Translations under genes and position numbers: made by a program
Assembly (NCBI RefSeq): GCF_001968835.1
Contig: NZ_MRDE01000063.1
Coordinates: 1-64,000 of the forward strand
Length of the DNA: 64,000 bases
Direction of reading: 5' to 3'
Origin: Tersicoccus phoenicis
GTDB taxonomy: Bacteria; Actinomycetota; Actinomycetes; Actinomycetales; Micrococcaceae
The notes under the pieces: generated by a model
Databases searched by the model: none
What the model was told of the DNA's origin: nothing
Seen by the model: only the letters and a program-made list of their open reading frames with translations
In this document: positions 1,414 to 27,116 of the stretch, in pieces
Layout of the letters: each line of letters opens with the position of its first letter
How positions within the stretch are numbered: position 1 is the stretch's first letter

Positions 1414-4400
1414 TCAGTGGAAGTCACGTGAGGAGAGGCGCAGGGACAGTGGCAGCGGTTCGAGCCGGTCGGCCACCAGGTTCGTGACTCCCTCCGGGGA
1501 CCGTTCCAGCACCCCGCGGACGATCATCGCCTTCGCATCGCGCGCGGTCCGCCGGTAGCGGGTCCACACCCCGACGCTGCAGATCACGTTGAGGATGCCC
1601 GTCTCGTCCTCCAGGTTGAGGAAGGTGATGCCCTGGGCGGTCTGCGGTCGCTGCCGATGGGTGACGATCCCGCAGACCTCGACCCGCCGGCCGGGCTCCG
1701 CCCGCTGCAGGTGAGCCGCCCGGAACACGCCCCGCTCGTCCAACCGGGCCCGCAGGTGCGCGACGGGATGGTCGTCGGTGCTGAGCCCGGTCGCCCACAG
1801 GTCGTCCGCCACCGTCTCTGCCGCGGACGGCGCGTCGAACAACGGCAGCTGCAGCGGGACCGCGGTGCCCGGAAGCTGTCCGTCCCGCTCGCCGGCCGCA
1901 TGCCCGGCCTGCCAGAGCGCCTCCCGCCGGTTCAGGCCCCAGCCGGCGAAGGCGCCCGCGGTGGCCAGTGCCTCGAGCTGCTCGGTGCTCATCGTCACCC
2001 GCCGCGCCAGCTCCGTCATGTCCTGGTAAGGGCCGCCGGCGTCGCGCTCGGCCACGATCCGCGCGGCCAGGTCCTTGCCGATGCCGGTGATTCCGGCCAG
2101 GCCCAGCCGGACCGCCAACGCCCCGTCGCGCCGGTGGTCGGCCGAGGCGTCGCGAGCGTTCGGATCGAACGGGCCCACTGCCGGCTGGGTGAACGCCAGG
2201 CACGCGGCCCGGCCGCCTGATTCCCGGCCGCCTGATTCCGGACTGGCGCCGGCGGTGACGCCGTCGATGGGCTCCATCCCGGCGTCGACCCCGGACCGGG
2301 CGATGTCGGGGCGGAGGAACCGGACCCCGTGCCGGCGGGCGTCGGCCACCAGCGTGTGCGGGGAGTAGAAGCCCATGGGCTGGGCCCGCAGCAGCGACGC
2401 GGTGAACACCCCCGGGTAGTGCAGTTTGATCCAGGAACTGGCGTACACCAGCACGCCGAAGGACAGGCTGTGGCTCTCCGCGAAACCGAAGTTCGCGAAC
2501 GCCTGGATCTTGTCGTACAGGACGTCGGCGGCCTCCCCGGTGATCCCGTTGCGAGCCATGCCCGCGTACAGCTTCTCCCGCAGCGTCTCGATCTTCTCCC
2601 GGCCGCGCTTGGAGCCCATGGCCCGGCGCAGCAGGTCAGCGTCCTCGGCCGAGCAGTCACCGATCGCCATGGCCATCTGCATCACCTGCTCCTGGAACAG
2701 CGGCACCCCCAGCGTGCGTTCCAGCACCGGAACGGTCCGCTCGTGCGGGTAGGTGACCGGCTCGGCACCCGACCGACGCCGGATGTAGGGATGCACGGCT
2801 CCGCCCTGGATCGGCCCGGGCCGGATCAACGCGATCTCGATCACCAGGTCGTAGAACCGACGGGGTCGCAGCCGCGGCAACGTCCCCATCTGGGCGCGGC
2901 TCTCCACCTGGAACACCCCGATCGAATCCGCCCGGCACAGCATGTCGTAGACGGCGGCCTCCTCCCGGGGGATGGTCTCGATCGTCCACGTCTCGCCCAG
3001 GTGCGCCGCGATCGCCTCGAACGCGTACTGCAGTGCGGCGAGCATGCCCAGGCCCAGCAGGTCGAATTTGACCAGTCCCATCCATTCGCAGTCGTCCTTG
3101 TCCCACTGCAGCACTGTCCGGTCCGCCATCCGAGCGCGCTCGATCGGCACCACCTCCCCGACGGGCCGGTCGGTCAACACCATCCCCCCGGAATGGATGC
3201 CGAGGTGCCGAGGGAAGCCCAGCACCGATTCGGCCAGGTCGAGGACGTGCTCGGGGATCTCGACGTCGGCGGCCTCGCGCAGGGATCCCCACCGCTCCAC
3301 CTGCTTGGACCAGGCGTCCTGTTGCCCCGTGCTGTACCCGAGGGCCTTGGCCATGTCCCGGACGGCGTTCTTCGGCCGGTAGGTGACCACGTTGGCCACC
3401 TGCGCGGCGTTGCGCCGGCCGTACTTGCCGTAGACGTACTGAATCACCTCCTCCCGTCGGTTCGAGTCGAAGTCGACGTCGATGTCCGGCTCCTCCTGCC
3501 GCAGGCTGGACAGGAACCGCTGGAACGGCAGGTCGTAGAAGATCGAGTCGACGGCGGTGATGCCCAGCACGTAGCACACCGCCGAGTTCGCCGCGCTGCC
3601 CCGGCCCTGGCAGAGGATGCCGCGGGAGCGGGCGAACCGGACGATGTCGTGGACGATCAGGAAGTAACCCGGGAAGTCCTTGGCCTCGATCACCGCCAGC
3701 TCCGCCTCCAGCCGCTCGGTGACGGCGGCGTCCGCATCGGGGTAGACCGTCTCGGCTCCGACCTGGACCAGTTCGCGCAGCCACGACATGGGGGTGTGCC
3801 CGTCCGGGACGTCCTGGCGAGGCAGCCGTGGCCGGGCGGCGCGCAATTCGAACGCCAGTTCCTCGGCCAGCTCGACGGTCGCGGCCACGGCGCCGGGGTA
3901 GCGGGCGAACCGCCGCGCCATCTCCGTCCCGCTGCGCAGGTGGGCGCCGTCCGACCCCGGCAGCCAGCCGTCCAGCTCGTCCAGGCTGCGTCGGGCTCGC
4001 ACCGCGGCCACTGTGGTGGCCAGCGGGAACTGCTCCTCGGTCGCGTAGTGCACGGCGTTGGTGGCCACGCAGCGCAGATCCAGCCGGGCGGCCAGCCCGG
4101 CGAGCACGTCATTGTGGGTGCTGTCCGCGGGGCCGCCGTGGTCGAGGAGTTCGACGACGACGTTGCGCTGCCCGAACAACTCCACCAGGCGACGCAGTGC
4201 CGTCTCGGCCGCGGCCGGCCCGCCGTCGGTCAGGGCGCGCCGGACCGCCCCCTTGCGGCACCCGGTCAGGATCACCCAGTGCCCACCGGCGACTTCAGCC
4301 AGGGCGGCCAGGTCGTGGACCGGTCGCCCCTTCTGCGCGTCCGCGGCCAGGTGGGCGGAGGTCAGTGCCCTGGCCAGCCGGTGATAGCCCTCCTCGCCAC

Positions 4401-4875
4401 GGGCCAGGACCAACAGGTGTTCCCCGTGCGGGTCGGGCTCCCCGTTCTGCGGGCCGGGCAGGCCGAGGGAGAGCTCGGCGCCGAAGACGGTGCGCAGCCC
4501 GTGCGCCTCGGCGGCCTCGGCCATCCGCACGATCCCGTACAGACCGTCGTGGTCCGTCAGCGCCAGGGCGTTCAGTCCGAGCCGGACGGCCTCCTCGACC
4601 AGCTGTTCGGGAGAGGACGCCCCATCGAGGAAGCTGTAGCTGGAGTGGGCGTGCAGCTCGGCGTACGCCACTGCCGACCCCGCGGCCGTGGTCCTCCCGC
4701 CGAGCGGGGCCGGCGGTGTGTAGGGGCCCCGCTTGCGGGAGAAGGCCGGTCCGTCCCCGCCGTCGGGCCGCTGCCCGGCGCCGGGACGCGGGCGCAGGCT
4801 GGACCGCTGGCCGGGGCGGTCGGAGAGCGCGCGCTCGAGGTCCCGCCACGGGATCGGGGGATTACGCCACCCCAT
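1414..4875 (-). CDS. dnaE2: error-prone DNA polymerase DnaE2/ImuC
   Basis: A C-family polymerase of 1153 residues used for damage-induced translesion synthesis. The start MGWRNPPIPWRDLE is characteristic of actinobacterial DnaE2. A PHP domain follows (H75-A-H77, LTDHDGLYG), then the polymerase domain with catalytic aspartates in PDIDVDFD (D464, D466, D468), and a C-terminal OB fold (VCGIVTHRQRPQTAQG). The length slightly exceeds the usual 1050-1100 residues because of the proline-rich N-terminus and a linker holding a duplicated ESGGR. The ATG at 4875 has AAGGACGG before it. It is the last gene of the imuA-imuB-dnaE2 cassette, separated from imuB by a tandem repeat, so it is probably co-transcribed under LexA control. 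Confidence 0.95.
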   Translation of the reverse strand: MGWRNPPIPWRDLERALSDRPGQRSSLRPRPGAGQRPDGGDGPAFSRKRGPYTPPAPLGGRTTAAGSAVAYAELHAHSSYSFLDGASSPEQLVEEAVRLGLNALALTDHDGLYGIVRMAEAAEAHGLRTVFGAELSLGLPGPQNGEPDPHGEHLLVLARGEEGYHRLARALTSAHLAADAQKGRPVHDLAALAEVAGGHWVILTGCRKGAVRRALTDGGPAAAETALRRLVELFGQRNVVVELLDHGGPADSTHNDVLAGLAARLDLRCVATNAVHYATEEQFPLATTVAAVRARRSLDELDGWLPGSDGAHLRSGTEMARRFARYPGAVAATVELAEELAFELRAARPRLPRQDVPDGHTPMSWLRELVQVGAETVYPDADAAVTERLEAELAVIEAKDFPGYFLIVHDIVRFARSRGILCQGRGSAANSAVCYVLGITAVDSIFYDLPFQRFLSSLRQEEPDIDVDFDSNRREEVIQYVYGKYGRRNAAQVANVVTYRPKNAVRDMAKALGYSTGQQDAWSKQVERWGSLREAADVEIPEHVLDLAESVLGFPRHLGIHSGGMVLTDRPVGEVVPIERARMADRTVLQWDKDDCEWMGLVKFDLLGLGMLAALQYAFEAIAAHLGETWTIETIPREEAAVYDMLCRADSIGVFQVESRAQMGTLPRLRPRRFYDLVIEIALIRPGPIQGGAVHPYIRRRSGAEPVTYPHERTVPVLERTLGVPLFQEQVMQMAMAIGDCSAEDADLLRRAMGSKRGREKIETLREKLYAGMARNGITGEAADVLYDKIQAFANFGFAESHSLSFGVLVYASSWIKLHYPGVFTASLLRAQPMGFYSPHTLVADARRHGVRFLRPDIARSGVDAGMEPIDGVTAGASPESGGRESGGRAACLAFTQPAVGPFDPNARDASADHRRDGALAVRLGLAGITGIGKDLAARIVAERDAGGPYQDMTELARRVTMSTEQLEALATAGAFAGWGLNRREALWQAGHAAGERDGQLPGTAVPLQLPLFDAPSAAETVADDLWATGLSTDDHPVAHLRARLDERGVFRAAHLQRAEPGRRVEVCGIVTHRQRPQTAQGITFLNLEDETGILNVICSVGVWTRYRRTARDAKAMIVRGVLERSPEGVTNLVADRLEPLPLSLRLSSRDFH
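2210..2239. repeat. 15-bp in-frame tandem duplication inside dnaE2
   Basis: Two perfect copies of CGGCCGCCTGATTCC (2210-2224 and 2225-2239) encode ESGGR twice in the linker between the polymerase core and the C-terminal domains of DnaE2. The reading frame is kept. Confidence 0.9.
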
Positions 4876-4915
4876 GTCCGTCCTTCTTCCTTCCCCGGTC
4901 TTCCCGGTCCACGCG

Positions 4916-5030
4916 CTACCGCGTGGACCCGGCTACCGCGTGGACCCGGCTACCGCGTGGGCCCGGCTACCGCGTGGACCGGGCTACCGCGTGGACCGGG
5001 CTCGGTCGTACCGGGCTCAGTCGTACCGGG
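4916..5030. repeat. tandem repeat between imuB and dnaE2 (five 17-bp units, two 15-bp units)
   Basis: Five head-to-tail units of CTACCGCGTGGACCCGG (4916-4932, 4933-4949, 4950-4966, 4967-4983, 4984-5000) differ at one or two positions only. Two 15-bp units ending GTCGTACCGGG follow (5001-5015, 5016-5030); the last one provides the final RYD codons and stop of imuB. The array fills almost the whole gap between imuB and the ribosome binding site of dnaE2. Confidence 0.92.
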
Positions 5031-21968: not shown

Positions 21969-23366
21969 GTGAATCTCGACGCAGCCATCCCCGGATCCCG
22001 CATGATCCCCGCGACCGGCACCCAGGAGGGTGCCGCCGCGTATCCGGGCCTGGACGCGTGGCGGTCGCTGCCGATCTCGCAGCAGCCGGACTGGCAGGAC
22101 GGCCCGGGCCTGGACGCGGCGCTGACCGAACTGTCCTCGGCGCCGCCGCTCGTGTTCGCCGGCGAGGTGGATCAGCTGCGGACCCGGCTCGCCGCCGCCG
22201 CGCAGGGCAACGCTTTCGTGCTGCAGGGCGGGGACTGCGCAGAGACCTTCGCGGGGATGACCGCGGACCGGATCAGCGCTCGCGTGCGCACCATCCTGCA
22301 GATGGCCGTCGTGCTCACCTACGGAGCCTCGCTGCCGGTGGTGAAGATGGGCCGGATGGCCGGACAGTTCGCCAAGCCGCGGTCCTCCAACGAGGAGACC
22401 CGTCACGGGGTCACCCTGCCCGCCTACCGCGGTGACATGGTCAACGGTTACGACTTCACCGAGGCGTCCCGGCGTCACGATCCGGCGCGGCTGATCCGCG
22501 CCTACCACAACGCCGCCTCGACGCTGAACCTCGTCCGGGCCTTCACCCAGGGCGGGTTCGCCGACCTGCGCGCCGTGCACGACTGGAACCGGGGTTTCGC
22601 GGCCCACCCGGCGCACGTGCGCTACGAGTCGACGGTGGCCCAGATCGACCGGGCGCTGAAGTTCATGGCCGCGTGCGGCGCGGACTTCGACGCGCTGCGC
22701 GGAGTCGAGTTCTTCGCCAGCCACGAGGCGCTCGTGCTCGAGTACGAGCGGGTGCTCACCCGGATCGACTCGCGCAGCCGGCTGCCGTACGACACCTCCG
22801 CGCACTTCGTTTGGATCGGGGAGCGGACCCGCGACCTCGACGGCGCGCACGTGGACTTCCTGTCCCGCGTGCGCAACCCCATCGGCGTCAAGCTCGGCCC
22901 CGGCACGGCGCCCGACGACGTGCTCGGCCTGATCGACCGGCTGGACCCGGAGCGGGAACCCGGACGACTGACCTTCATCACCCGGATGGGCGCCGGTCTC
23001 ATCCGCGACCGACTGCCGGACCTGGTGCGCACGGTGACCGACAGCGGGGCCACGGTGCTGTGGATCACCGACCCGATGCACGGCAACACCGTGACCTCCC
23101 CGAACGGGTACAAGACCCGGAACTTCGACGACGTGGTGGACGAGGTCCGCGGCTTCTTCGAGGTGCATCGGGAACTGGGCACCGTGCCCGGGGGCCTGCA
23201 CGTCGAGATGACCGGCGACGACGTCGCCGAGTGCCTGGGCGGCTCCGACCGGATCGACCAGGAGGCCTTCCTCACCCGGTACGAGTCGGTGTGCGACCCT
23301 CGGCTGAACCACCAGCAGTCCCTGGAGCTCGCCTTCCTCGTTGCGGAGTCCCTCGCCGGGAACTGA
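21969..23366 (+). CDS. aroG: 3-deoxy-7-phosphoheptulonate synthase, class II
   Basis: A plant-type DAHP synthase of 465 residues. It joins phosphoenolpyruvate and erythrose 4-phosphate in the first step of the shikimate pathway. Class II hallmarks are present: FVLQGGDCAETFAG with the metal-binding cysteine, VVKMGRMAGQFAKPRSS, the phosphate-binding RSSNEETRHG, and a C-terminal EMTGDDVAECLGG. The length is the family norm. The GTG at 21969 fits a leaderless transcript. It is followed by a small basic protein gene. In mycobacteria this enzyme works with a chorismate mutase encoded elsewhere, which is not in the window. Confidence 0.97.
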   Translation: MNLDAAIPGSRMIPATGTQEGAAAYPGLDAWRSLPISQQPDWQDGPGLDAALTELSSAPPLVFAGEVDQLRTRLAAAAQGNAFVLQGGDCAETFAGMTADRISARVRTILQMAVVLTYGASLPVVKMGRMAGQFAKPRSSNEETRHGVTLPAYRGDMVNGYDFTEASRRHDPARLIRAYHNAASTLNLVRAFTQGGFADLRAVHDWNRGFAAHPAHVRYESTVAQIDRALKFMAACGADFDALRGVEFFASHEALVLEYERVLTRIDSRSRLPYDTSAHFVWIGERTRDLDGAHVDFLSRVRNPIGVKLGPGTAPDDVLGLIDRLDPEREPGRLTFITRMGAGLIRDRLPDLVRTVTDSGATVLWITDPMHGNTVTSPNGYKTRNFDDVVDEVRGFFEVHRELGTVPGGLHVEMTGDDVAECLGGSDRIDQEAFLTRYESVCDPRLNHQQSLELAFLVAESLAGN

Positions 23367-23421
23367 CGCGGTAGGACGATGTCGGTGCCGGGGTCGCGGG
23401 GACCGGCCAGGTGCCGCGGAG

Positions 23422-23427
23422 TAGTAT
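23422..23427 (+). promoter_or_regulatory. candidate -10 element for the small basic protein gene
   Basis: TAGTAT lies about 57 bases before the preferred GTG start at 23484 and five bases before an alternative in-frame GTG at 23433. Confidence 0.45.
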
Positions 23428-23483
23428 TCGTCGTGGCCGCTCCGTCGGAGCTGGTCGACAGTCGGACGATCGGAAGGAGCGAC

Positions 23484-23663
23484 GTGGGACATCACGGTCG
23501 CAAGTCCTACGGTGGGGGTCACCATCGCACCAGCCCGATGGGTGGTGGGTATCTCGGGAACCCCTTGGGCGCTCACCACCGGTCGACGGGAGGCTACGGA
23601 CGTAGACGCTCCGGCCTGCTCACCCGGCTGCTGCGCATGTTCTTCGGACGCCGTCATCGCTGA
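23484..23663 (+). CDS. small Gly/His/Arg-rich basic protein
   Basis: A 59-residue protein of unknown function. It is rich in glycine, histidine and arginine (GHHGRKSYGGGHHRT, then RSTGGYGRRRSG) and ends with a short amphipathic or hydrophobic segment and a basic tip (LLTRLLRMFFGRRHR). The GTG at 23484 has a strong AAGGAG four bases before it, which is the main reason to believe it. An alternative GTG at 23433, five bases after a TAGTAT hexamer, would give 76 residues by leaderless translation. It sits between DAHP synthase and a cation exchanger. Nucleic-acid or metal binding can be imagined from the composition, but nothing shows it. Confidence 0.6.
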   Translation: MGHHGRKSYGGGHHRTSPMGGGYLGNPLGAHHRSTGGYGRRRSGLLTRLLRMFFGRRHR

Positions 23664-23732
23664 TCCCGGCGTGGTCCGCACGCTGTCCGGCGTGCTCGGT
23701 CGGGCCCGGGCGATCGTGCGGGGAGCCGCACG

Positions 23733-25025
23733 GTGACCGGACGCGCGACGTCGACCTCCGCGGTGTCCGCGGGGCGGTTGGTGCCCATCGCCGTTGCGGT
23801 GGCGCTGTTCACGCCCGCCATGGTGAGTCTGCTCTTCGGCATCGAGCTGTTGCCCATCGCCAGCGTCTTGATCTACGGCGCGGCGTTCATCGGAGCCGCG
23901 CTGCTGCTCACCTGGGGGACCGAACTGGCGCAGATCGATCTGCCGCAGGGGCTCGCGATCTCGTTTCTGGCGCTGATCGCGATCCTGCCGGAGTACGCGG
24001 TCGATCTCCTGTTCGCCTTCCAGGCCGGCACCGACCCGCAGAGCGCACCGCTCGCGCTGGCGAACATGACCGGGGCGAACCGGCTGTTGATCGGCGTCGG
24101 CTGGTCGCTGGTCGTCCTGGTGGCGGCGCTCGGATTCCGGCGCCAGAACCGGAAGAATCCCTCCGCCGGCTCACCCTTCGACTTCCGCCTCGGACGCCTC
24201 GCGACGGTGGACGTGGTCGTGCTGGGCTTGATCTCCGTCTACGCGCTCACGCTGGTCCTGCGTCCCTCTCTGACGGTGATCGACTCGGTCGTCCTGATCG
24301 GGATGTTCGCCTTCTACGTGACGCGACTGTGGCGGGCTCCGAAGGAGGAACCGGACTTCATCGGGCCACCCGCCGCGATCGCCGTGCTCCCGACCGGTGC
24401 CCGGCGGTTGGTGACCATCGCGCTCATGGTGGTGGCTGCCACGGTGATCCTGCTCTCGGCCGAGCCGTTCTCCGGCTCACTGGTCCAGTCCGGACAGGAT
24501 CTGGGTGTGGACAGCTTCCTCATGGTGCAGTGGATCGCGCCGCTGGCCACGGAGACCGCCGAGTTGATCCCGGCGTGCATCTTCGCGTGGCGACAGAGCG
24601 CCAACGAGGGGCTCGGCACCCTGCTCTCCTCCAAGATCAACCAGTGGTCGCTGTTGGTCGGAGCGGTGCCGATCGCCTTCCTGCTCGGCGGCGGTTCGCT
24701 CACGGGACTGCCGATGGACCCGCTGCAGCGGCAGGAACTCTTCCTCACCGGAGCGCAATCCATCTTCGCGATGAGCCTGCTCACCGATCTGAAGCTGACG
24801 GTGCGGGAGGCCGTGCTCATCCTGGTGCTCTTCCTCGGTGATTTCTCCGCGAGCGTGTTCCTCCCCGACGACGTCCAGACGTACACACGGTTCGGCTTCT
24901 CGGGTCTGTACCTGGTCCTGGCCGCCGTGCGGCTGGTGACCGCTCGACGGGTTCTGCCGTCGCTGGTACGCGACGGCCTGCTGATCTCACCGGTCCGGCT
25001 CGCCGAGGAGGAGCGCGCACGCTGA
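23733..25025 (+). CDS. Ca2+/cation antiporter (CaCA) superfamily membrane protein
   Basis: A membrane protein of 430 residues with about ten predicted helices. The two inverted alpha-repeats of sodium/calcium exchangers can be traced: the first with AILPEYAVDLLFAFQAGT and LANMTGANRLLIG, the second with PLATETAELIPACIFAWRQSANEGLGTLLSSKINQW. Acidic residues within helices (the Glu of LPEYA and of TETAE) fit the cation site. It should swap cations for Na+ or H+ across the cytoplasmic membrane; the ion is not known. A basic linker (RRQNRKNP) follows the first repeat. The GTG at 23733 has GGGAG before it. It converges on pknL. Confidence 0.82.
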   Translation: MTGRATSTSAVSAGRLVPIAVAVALFTPAMVSLLFGIELLPIASVLIYGAAFIGAALLLTWGTELAQIDLPQGLAISFLALIAILPEYAVDLLFAFQAGTDPQSAPLALANMTGANRLLIGVGWSLVVLVAALGFRRQNRKNPSAGSPFDFRLGRLATVDVVVLGLISVYALTLVLRPSLTVIDSVVLIGMFAFYVTRLWRAPKEEPDFIGPPAAIAVLPTGARRLVTIALMVVAATVILLSAEPFSGSLVQSGQDLGVDSFLMVQWIAPLATETAELIPACIFAWRQSANEGLGTLLSSKINQWSLLVGAVPIAFLLGGGSLTGLPMDPLQRQELFLTGAQSIFAMSLLTDLKLTVREAVLILVLFLGDFSASVFLPDDVQTYTRFGFSGLYLVLAAVRLVTARRVLPSLVRDGLLISPVRLAEEERAR

Positions 25026-25040
25026 CCGCGCGCTGCCGGC

Positions 25041-27116
25041 TCAGACCACGGTCAGCACGATCGTTGACCCCTCGGGAGCGGTGCCGCCGCCGGCCGGGTC
25101 CTGTGCCCGGACGGTGCCGAAGAACCCGCCGAGCACCTCGCGTACCTCGACCCGGAAACCCGTCGTCTCCAGCCGCCGACGCGCCTGGTCGACCTGGGTG
25201 CCGATCAGATCGGGCACCTCGACCATGCGGGGGCCCTTCGACAGGGTGAGGTTGACCGTCGACCCCCGCGGGGCCTGCCCACCGGCGGGTGCCTGCGCCG
25301 TGACCGAGCCCTCCGGCACCGTGCCACTGAACACGCGGGCGGGCGCGAGCGCGACGAGGAGCCCCGCGTCGGCCAGCCGCTGCCGCGCCTGCCGCTCCGG
25401 TGAACCGGTGACGTCGGGGACGTCCACGGGCTGGCGTCCCCGGGAGACCACGAGGTTCACGCCCGAGCCGGCCCGGCGCTGCGCGTCCGCGGCCGGCAGC
25501 TGACTGAGCACCCGGCCGGCGGCGACCGTCTCGCTCCAGGCGCCGCTGACGGTGCCGACGTCGAGTCGTGCGCCCGTGAGGGTGGCCCGGGCCTCCTCGG
25601 TCGTCCGCCCGACCACCCCGGGAACCGCATACAGTGTGGGCCCGGCCGAGACCAGCAGCGTGACCGGCTGGAACCGGCGGATCGGCGTGGCGGCGGCGGG
25701 GTCCGTGTCGATCACCGTGCCGATGGCCGCGACCTCGTCGTTGACCCGCCGTACCGTGCCGGCCAGGCCGAGTTCGGCGAGCGACCGCTCCGCCGCTGCG
25801 AGGGTGCGGGTCCGCACGTCCGGGACGGCGACGGCGACCCCGGGGCCGTAGCCGAAGAACCAGGCCAGCAACCCGGCGACGAGGGCGACGAGCAGGGCGA
25901 GCACCACCAGCAGGACGCCGCGCCGGCGGGCGTGTCCCCGGTGCAGTGAGACGGGGGCGGTGCCGCCGCGGGTCGGCCGTGGGAGGGGAGCGCCGGCGTG
26001 GCCGGGGCGGACCGTCGACGTGTCGGCCGCGGCGCGTTCGGGCGCCCCGGTAACCACGCCGGGGCCGGAGATCGCCGTGGTCGCCGCGAGGGGTCCGATC
26101 ACCTCGGTGCGGTCGCCTCCGGGAATCCCCGCGGGCATGCCGCGCGGGGGGCGGTCCGGCCGCTCCGGCAGGACCGTCCGTTCGGTGTCCCGGGCGGCGG
26201 ACGCGGCCAGTGCGGGACTCGGAGCCAGCAGACCGGCGTCGGGCGCGCTCGGGCCGGCCTGATCCAGGTCCTCGTCCGTCATGGTGCTCTGGATGTGCCG
26301 CAGTTCCTCGAGCAGGGCGTGCGCGTGCACCGGCCGGTTGTCCGGGTCGGTCGCGGCGCACCACTGCACCAGTTCGTCCAGATCCGGGGACAGGCCGGGC
26401 ACCAGCCGGGACGGCGGGGGGACCACCGAGTTGACGTGCGCGTAGGCGACCTGCACGGCGCTCGCACCGGTGAACGGCTGTCGGCCGGTGAGCAGTTCGT
26501 ACAGCAGCACGCCGACGGAGTAGAGGTCGCTGCGCGCGTCCGTCGGATCACCGAGCACCACCTCGGGGGCGATGTAGGCGACGGTGCCGAGCAGCGTGGT
26601 CGAGTTGGTCGGGGCCGTGATGGCACGGACCAGGCCGAAGTCCGCCACCTTGACCCGGCCGTCGTGCCCGATCAAAACGTTCTCCGGCTTCACGTCGCGG
26701 TGGATGAGGCCGGCGTCGTGCGCTGCCGCGAGGCCGTCGATCACGGGATCGATCAGGGCCAGAGCGTGCCGCGGTGTCAGTCGACCGCGCTGGTCGAGCA
26801 CCTGCCGGAGCGTCTGCCCGGGCACGTACTCCATCACGAGGTAGACGACGTCGTCGTCGGCCCCGCGGTCCTGCACCTGGACGACGTGAGGGTGGTTGAG
26901 GCGGGCGGCGGCCCGGGCCTCGCGGATGAACCGGTCGAGGAAGTCGGGATCAGCCGTCAGGTGGTCGGCCATCACCTTGACCGCCACCTCGCGGTCCAGG
27001 CGTCCGTCCACGGCGAGGTAGACGGTGGACATGCCTCCGCGCGCCAGCCGCTCGACGATCTCGTAGCGCTGGTCGATCACCCGGCCCACCAGCCGGTCGG
27101 GTACGCGGTGCTGCAC
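25041..27116 (-). CDS. pknL: Ser/Thr protein kinase with four PASTA domains (PknL type)
   Basis: A transmembrane kinase of 691 residues. The cytoplasmic kinase domain has the glycine loop LARGGMSTVY, K47 in VAVKVM, HRDVKPEN with catalytic D141, DFG at 159-161 and the activation loop NSTTLLGTVAYIAPE. A Pro/Ala-rich linker leads to one membrane helix at about 400-421, followed by four extracellular PASTA repeats (from residue 429 to the end), which in other kinases bind peptidoglycan fragments. The GTG start at 27116 fits a leaderless transcript. Mycobacterial PknL lacks the PASTA part, so the name rests on the neighbouring Rv2175c-like gene and prenyl synthase. Confidence 0.92.
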   Translation of the reverse strand: MQHRVPDRLVGRVIDQRYEIVERLARGGMSTVYLAVDGRLDREVAVKVMADHLTADPDFLDRFIREARAAARLNHPHVVQVQDRGADDDVVYLVMEYVPGQTLRQVLDQRGRLTPRHALALIDPVIDGLAAAHDAGLIHRDVKPENVLIGHDGRVKVADFGLVRAITAPTNSTTLLGTVAYIAPEVVLGDPTDARSDLYSVGVLLYELLTGRQPFTGASAVQVAYAHVNSVVPPPSRLVPGLSPDLDELVQWCAATDPDNRPVHAHALLEELRHIQSTMTDEDLDQAGPSAPDAGLLAPSPALAASAARDTERTVLPERPDRPPRGMPAGIPGGDRTEVIGPLAATTAISGPGVVTGAPERAAADTSTVRPGHAGAPLPRPTRGGTAPVSLHRGHARRRGVLLVVLALLVALVAGLLAWFFGYGPGVAVAVPDVRTRTLAAAERSLAELGLAGTVRRVNDEVAAIGTVIDTDPAAATPIRRFQPVTLLVSAGPTLYAVPGVVGRTTEEARATLTGARLDVGTVSGAWSETVAAGRVLSQLPAADAQRRAGSGVNLVVSRGRQPVDVPDVTGSPERQARQRLADAGLLVALAPARVFSGTVPEGSVTAQAPAGGQAPRGSTVNLTLSKGPRMVEVPDLIGTQVDQARRRLETTGFRVEVREVLGGFFGTVRAQDPAGGGTAPEGSTIVLTVV

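Follow-up and report, generated by a model that had tools for sequence, protein, structure and literature searches.

A small Gly/His/Arg-rich open reading frame beside a CAX-type exchanger gene in an extra segment of the Tersicoccus phoenicis genome

The segment between the DAHP synthase and kinase genes

The DNA analyzed here (the window) comprises 64,000 nucleotides of contig NZ_MRDE01000063.1 from Tersicoccus phoenicis, a species originally recovered in a clean room for spacecraft. An rRNA region occupies positions 1-575, where the 3' end of a 23S gene precedes 5S rRNA. The features discussed below lie between the genes for DAHP synthase and a Ser/Thr kinase:

23367..25040, no strand assigned: extra segment of 1674 bp between the two genes, from gap measurement
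23433..23483, plus strand: in-frame 17-codon extension beginning at GTG 23433, a possible but weak leaderless start
23472..23479, plus strand: GGAAGGAG, a Shine-Dalgarno-like site that contains AAGGAG, 4 nt before GTG 23484
23484 (GTG)..23663 (TGA), plus strand: small ORF of 59 aa from the ORF listing, Gly/Arg/His-rich, with no family match
23490..23600, plus strand: three His-His repeats (HHGRKSYGGG, HHRTSPMGGGY and HHRSTGGYG)
23613..23654, plus strand: C-terminal helix predicted by AlphaFold2 (residues 44-57), Leu/Arg-rich, block pLDDT 74 and 68
23733..25025, plus strand: CAX-type cation exchanger of 430 aa, Pfam Na_Ca_ex (PF01699, E 4.8e-18; PDB chain 4kpp_A, E 2.8e-69)

A first-pass annotation of this DNA had described a 59-residue frame of unusual Gly/His/Arg composition downstream of DAHP synthase, and both observations are confirmed here: the small protein contains 15 Gly, 11 Arg and 7 His, with a predicted pI of 12.0. 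The context given at that time included neither the exchanger downstream nor the absence of the segment from relatives. The exchanger, whose PDB match 4kpp we take to be an archaeal H+/Ca2+ exchanger, starts 69 nt downstream of the small ORF on the same strand, no terminator-like site was found between them, and together the ORF and the exchanger gene fill the 1674-bp gap.

Gene order in relatives runs from an acyltransferase through DAHP synthase to a convergent Ser/Thr kinase gene. The closely related Tersicoccus solisilvae, whose DAHP synthase shares 94% identity with the window's, has only 54 bp between DAHP synthase and the kinase, and a second congener (G015) has 120 bp. In a survey of the best 80 of 579 confirmed loci, 77 of which were measurable, the gap was at most 175 bp in 75 of the 77; 69 of these lay between 0 and 175, and six were negative, reflecting either overlap or a stop walk that ran past a weakly aligned kinase end. 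The two larger gaps measured 691 in L075, which may be kinase sequence because the kinase alignment stops there at residue 286, and 614 in L079. In the latter locus, from a Micrococcales MAG, a frame within the gap (about 4390-5005) resembles by eye a LysE-type membrane transporter, so that a transporter gene may stand between DAHP synthase and the kinase here as well. Another locus, L054 (WNZI01000048.1), is titled Vibrio cholerae strain 35D and shows an Arthrobacter-like DAHP synthase in Micrococcaceae gene order; this assembly is probably mislabelled or contaminated.

At E up to 1e-5 the exchanger was found in none of the 80 loci, two of which (L015 and L039) end 62 and 283 bases after the DAHP synthase match. 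Matches at E up to 1e-30 occurred in 7 of 197 family genomes, the T. phoenicis genome included. Elsewhere the best matches reach 48-50% identity, too distant to name a closer donor among the genomes searched, where the family of genome G225 is represented by G225 alone; the 28 plasmid records with an exchanger match all fell below 60% identity, and a plasmid copy was likewise set aside as a close relative. No repeats at both ends of the segment appeared in the repeat listing. Among the loci examined, then, the segment of about 1.6 kb is found only in the T. phoenicis lineage, and the simplest account would be that it was gained rather than lost.

Coding evidence for the small ORF

Two in-frame starts lie upstream of GTG 23484, namely GTG 23433 and ATG 23379, which would extend the protein to 76 and 94 residues, respectively. 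The first-pass annotation had named GTG 23433 as an alternative, leaderless start. The in-frame GTG stands, but its leaderless use appears weak: its basis is a TAGTAT at 23422-23427, five bases before the GTG and recognized by eye, and a scan of 23200-25100 returned no sigma-70 site.

That annotation had also taken an AAGGAG at ideal distance as an argument for translation. The motif is present, within GGAAGGAG, and a ribosome site of the kind expected of a protein-coding gene precedes the frame; the distance, however, is not ideal, a 4-nt spacer being slightly short against the usual optimum. Within the window GGAAGGAG-N3-8-RTG occurs once, against 0.28 expected, and at least one occurrence was obtained in 26 of 100 shuffles. 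The shorter AAGGAG-N3-8-RTG is found six times versus 2.3 expected, with six or more in 4 of 100 shuffles. Apart from the one before the small ORF, three of these sites stand ahead of frames that carry a Pfam domain (MerR, DUF3040 and AMP-binding), so that such sites often mark starts in the window; one of the remaining two is inside the AMP-binding frame. The argument for translation thus gains from the ribosome site and from the His-His repeats described below, and loses from codon usage.

It is quite possible that the ORF is spurious, that is, a chance frame in a G+C-rich spacer which is either untranslated or translated without use, leaving the exchanger as the sole gene of the segment. 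The length of the ORF is what such a frame would be expected to have: when the 366-bp stretch was shuffled 1000 times with its dinucleotides preserved, 52.5% of the resulting sequences contained a closed ORF of 59 aa or longer (10.8% one of 94 aa or longer), and length therefore carries no weight. Same-strand frames of 64 and 74 aa moreover overlap the small ORF. Codon usage points the same way, since the native usage and high GC3 that a protein-coding gene should possess are both lacking. G+C is nearly even over codon positions 1, 2 and 3 of the small ORF (0.695, 0.61 and 0.712), as against 0.71, 0.482 and 0.938 in DAHP synthase and 0.672, 0.46 and 0.90 in the exchanger; its GC3 of 0.712 compares with 0.90 for the exchanger, 0.94 for DAHP synthase, 0.89 for MerR and 0.84 for DUF3040. 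The synonymous-codon score of -0.05 lies under all 256 windows of 59 codons taken from seven genes, a value that a quarter (25%) of the off-frame windows attain. The comparison is to some extent circular, since six of the seven control genes also served to train the score and are favoured by it; genes from outside the training also score above the small ORF (exchanger 0.244, MerR 0.237, DUF3040 0.089). The controls for codon usage were DUF3040, MerR and large genes, other conserved short frames having been dropped because, judged by position, most of them appeared to be shadows of larger genes.

A chance frame is harder to reconcile with GGAAGGAG at the start and with the three His-His repeats, which show synonymous variation, the His pairs being encoded by three different codon pairs (CATCAC, CACCAT and CACCAC). 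At least three HH pairs were obtained in 0.49% of 20,000 composition shuffles of the small protein, and three copies of the full repeat motif, which was chosen post hoc, in none of 20,000. Nowhere else in the window, read in all six frames, does a stop-free stretch of 59 aa contain three HH. Self-similarity as a whole is marginal, with 19 of 400 shuffles matching the gapped self-alignment score. In our view the repeats speak with moderate strength for the protein having been under selection, but codon usage counterbalances them. Repeats and codon usage could both be accounted for by a gene that is young or foreign, and equally by noncoding DNA in which a repeat arose by chance. The coding evidence is accordingly mixed, and we place the likelihood that the small ORF is translated at about one half.

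The collections searched yielded no homolog of the small protein, as a spurious frame would predict. At E up to 1 there was no match in Pfam or among PDB sequences for the 59-aa form, nor in NCBIfam or PHROGs for the 59- and 76-aa forms. The plasmids and phages searched contained no relative, and none of 169 pattern matches in viral contigs was confirmed. Neither congener gave a match to the protein at E up to 0.01. When the DNA of 23367-23732 was compared with the three Tersicoccus genomes, only short matches, taken as chance, were obtained besides the stretch itself; they span 30-43 bases, with a best E of 0.0065. The small protein had matches at E up to 0.01 in 8 of 197 genomes sampled from the family and 18 of 394 sampled from the class, or, with its own genome excluded, 7 of 196 and 17 of 393, corresponding to 23 distinct loci. 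These were rejected as relatives: their alignments are partial, and none is a small ORF that shares both ends (for one of the 23, L123, the alignment read is at a different place from the listed match). The best of them, L118 (E 5.4e-5), lies within a frame of 243 aa, of which 47 residues align at 49%. Another, L128, carries two HH pairs and aligns at 52% over 31 residues; its frame is Cys/Arg-rich and 96 aa long, and an exchanger is present in the same genome (G459), on a separate contig. We take this match as probably due to chance, and the weak matches in the sampled class genomes in general look like chance.

Leaders of the exchanger genes

The position of the small ORF directly upstream of the exchanger would also suit a leader ORF, whose translation matters rather than its peptide, with ribosomes controlling the exchanger through coupling or attenuation. 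Consistent with this, the ribosome site of the exchanger falls within a GTGCGG-GGAG-CCGCAC hairpin (23716-23731) in the predicted fold, and an RNA of regulatory appearance precedes the exchanger in 10 of 26 other loci. We nevertheless consider a leader ORF improbable: the window's leader folds no more stably than shuffles (z -0.21; 0.40 for the part before the ORF), it has no Rfam match, and 59 aa is long for a leader. The 26 loci include three near-duplicate pairs (L095/L096, L098/L100 and L102/L103) and one locus, L117, with about 370 bases upstream; none has a small-ORF-like frame upstream on the exchanger's strand.

The leader shared by the ten loci contains GCGAAGGGGAGTAGYTCC, GTCGACAT and GAGACCTTCGGC, with variation at individual bases, and occurs in one exchanger locus of each of the three Tersicoccus genomes. 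Its positions are:

L095, 1322-1439: structured leader RNA
L096, about 2350-2519, minus strand: structured leader RNA
L097, 1265-1410: structured leader RNA
Seven further exchanger loci: structured leader RNA

RNAalifold predicts 29 pairs from eight of the leaders, and for 10 of these pairs one or more sequences differ at both partners. Rfam gave no match at E up to 0.5 in ten scanned sources, among them the three Tersicoccus leaders, and RF00080, the Mn2+ riboswitch, matched the three Tersicoccus genomes only below threshold and at other places (at most 23.6 bits). A covariance model built from the same eight leaders (R1) was run against 248 genomes of the order and had matches with E no higher than 0.001 in 31, one being the T. 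phoenicis genome itself, whose leader copy is in the model. When 20 of the new loci were scanned, five matched RF00080 at the right place with 19.5-23.5 bits, against a cut-off of 45; three other Rfam matches were to microRNA families and were taken as chance. Several proteins downstream of R1 loci presumably belong with GDT1/UPF0016, MntP or TerC, which they resemble by eye. From these sub-threshold matches and downstream proteins, the leader is therefore most likely a form of the known yybP-ykoY Mn2+ riboswitch that falls under the Rfam threshold, and no new class.

The window's own exchanger seems to be without this riboswitch because its leader does not match R1: with filters off the model scores 4.2 bits there, one of 22 similar or lower matches in 501 bases, and its best match in the whole window (14.1 bits, E 0.33) lies away from the leader. 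No yybP-ykoY aptamer was found upstream of this exchanger. Judged from its leader, the gene thus appears not to share the regulator that precedes the genome's other exchanger copy (L097). It could be argued that a Mn2+ riboswitch has decayed at about 23410-23475, with the small ORF standing behind its remains; GGAGTAGT at 23418 is followed about 35 nt on by GTCGACA, which by eye is near the spacing in L095. The covariance-model scores disfavour any riboswitch here, however, and all-against-all blastn at E up to 1e-3 links the stretch to no exchanger leader, leaving decay a very improbable origin.

Interpretation and comparison with known systems

The best reading of the locus is a two-gene unit, comprising the small ORF and the exchanger, that lies between DAHP synthase and the kinase gene only in T. 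phoenicis among the loci examined. The small ORF would be its first gene and would be co-transcribed with the exchanger. Its ribosome site would then drive translation of a 59-aa protein of pI 12. We put forward tentatively, at slightly below an even chance, that the small ORF encodes a translated, species-restricted orphan protein; a species-restricted cationic protein on the one hand, and an untranslated or leader ORF on the other, stand about level.

AlphaFold2, run on the single sequence, returned a poor model with one helix (mean pLDDT 58.6), from which the protein may combine a flexible portion rich in Gly, His and Arg with a helix of cationic character at the C-terminus. The Leu/Arg-rich composition of the helix suggests a cationic surface-binding element, one that might bind polyanions or a membrane face, and the His pairs might weakly bind divalent metal; the protein could then act as an accessory of the exchanger. 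Binding of metal or nucleic acid, as raised in the first-pass annotation, is a guess from composition, and we consider the proposed action as a whole (polyanion or membrane-face binding, weak metal binding, a role as exchanger accessory) unlikely. More speculative still, and highly improbable, is the idea that the small protein is a new regulator, binding metal or polyanions, which came in together with the gained exchanger or arose beside it and took the place of the Mn2+ riboswitch; an RNA sensor, apparently in control of the resident exchanger copy, would then have a protein-level replacement here.

The accessible text of PMC5374230 and PMC12403811 makes no mention of the small ORF or of transcript or peptide data for it; that of the latter, a paper on T. 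phoenicis dormancy, has no mention of RNA-seq and mentions proteomics only in the reference list. Should the small ORF be translated, it would exemplify cleanly a small gene that is specific to one species and lies beside an ion exchanger in a sharply bounded segment, a useful test of the ways in which orphan small genes become attached to transporters. Should it not be, a good ribosome-site sequence in a G+C-rich spacer is insufficient evidence for a gene.

Among known systems, the CAX/CaCA exchangers (PF01699; PDB 4kpp) include the downstream gene as a clear member through its Na_Ca_ex domain, and the small ORF lies outside that family. With the Hpn-type histidine-rich metal-storage proteins the small protein shares a size of about 60 residues and the presence of His pairs. 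Hpn is nearly half His, whereas the small protein is very Arg-rich and at 12% His (7 of 59) falls well short of the very high content of an Hpn-like metal protein. Like taxonomically restricted (orphan) small bacterial ORFs, the small ORF is short, so far confined to one species, unusual in composition and atypical in its codons; unlike them, it has a strong ribosome-site sequence, lies in a sharply bounded extra segment and is accompanied by one partner gene. It is plausibly a species-specific small gene of an ordinary kind.
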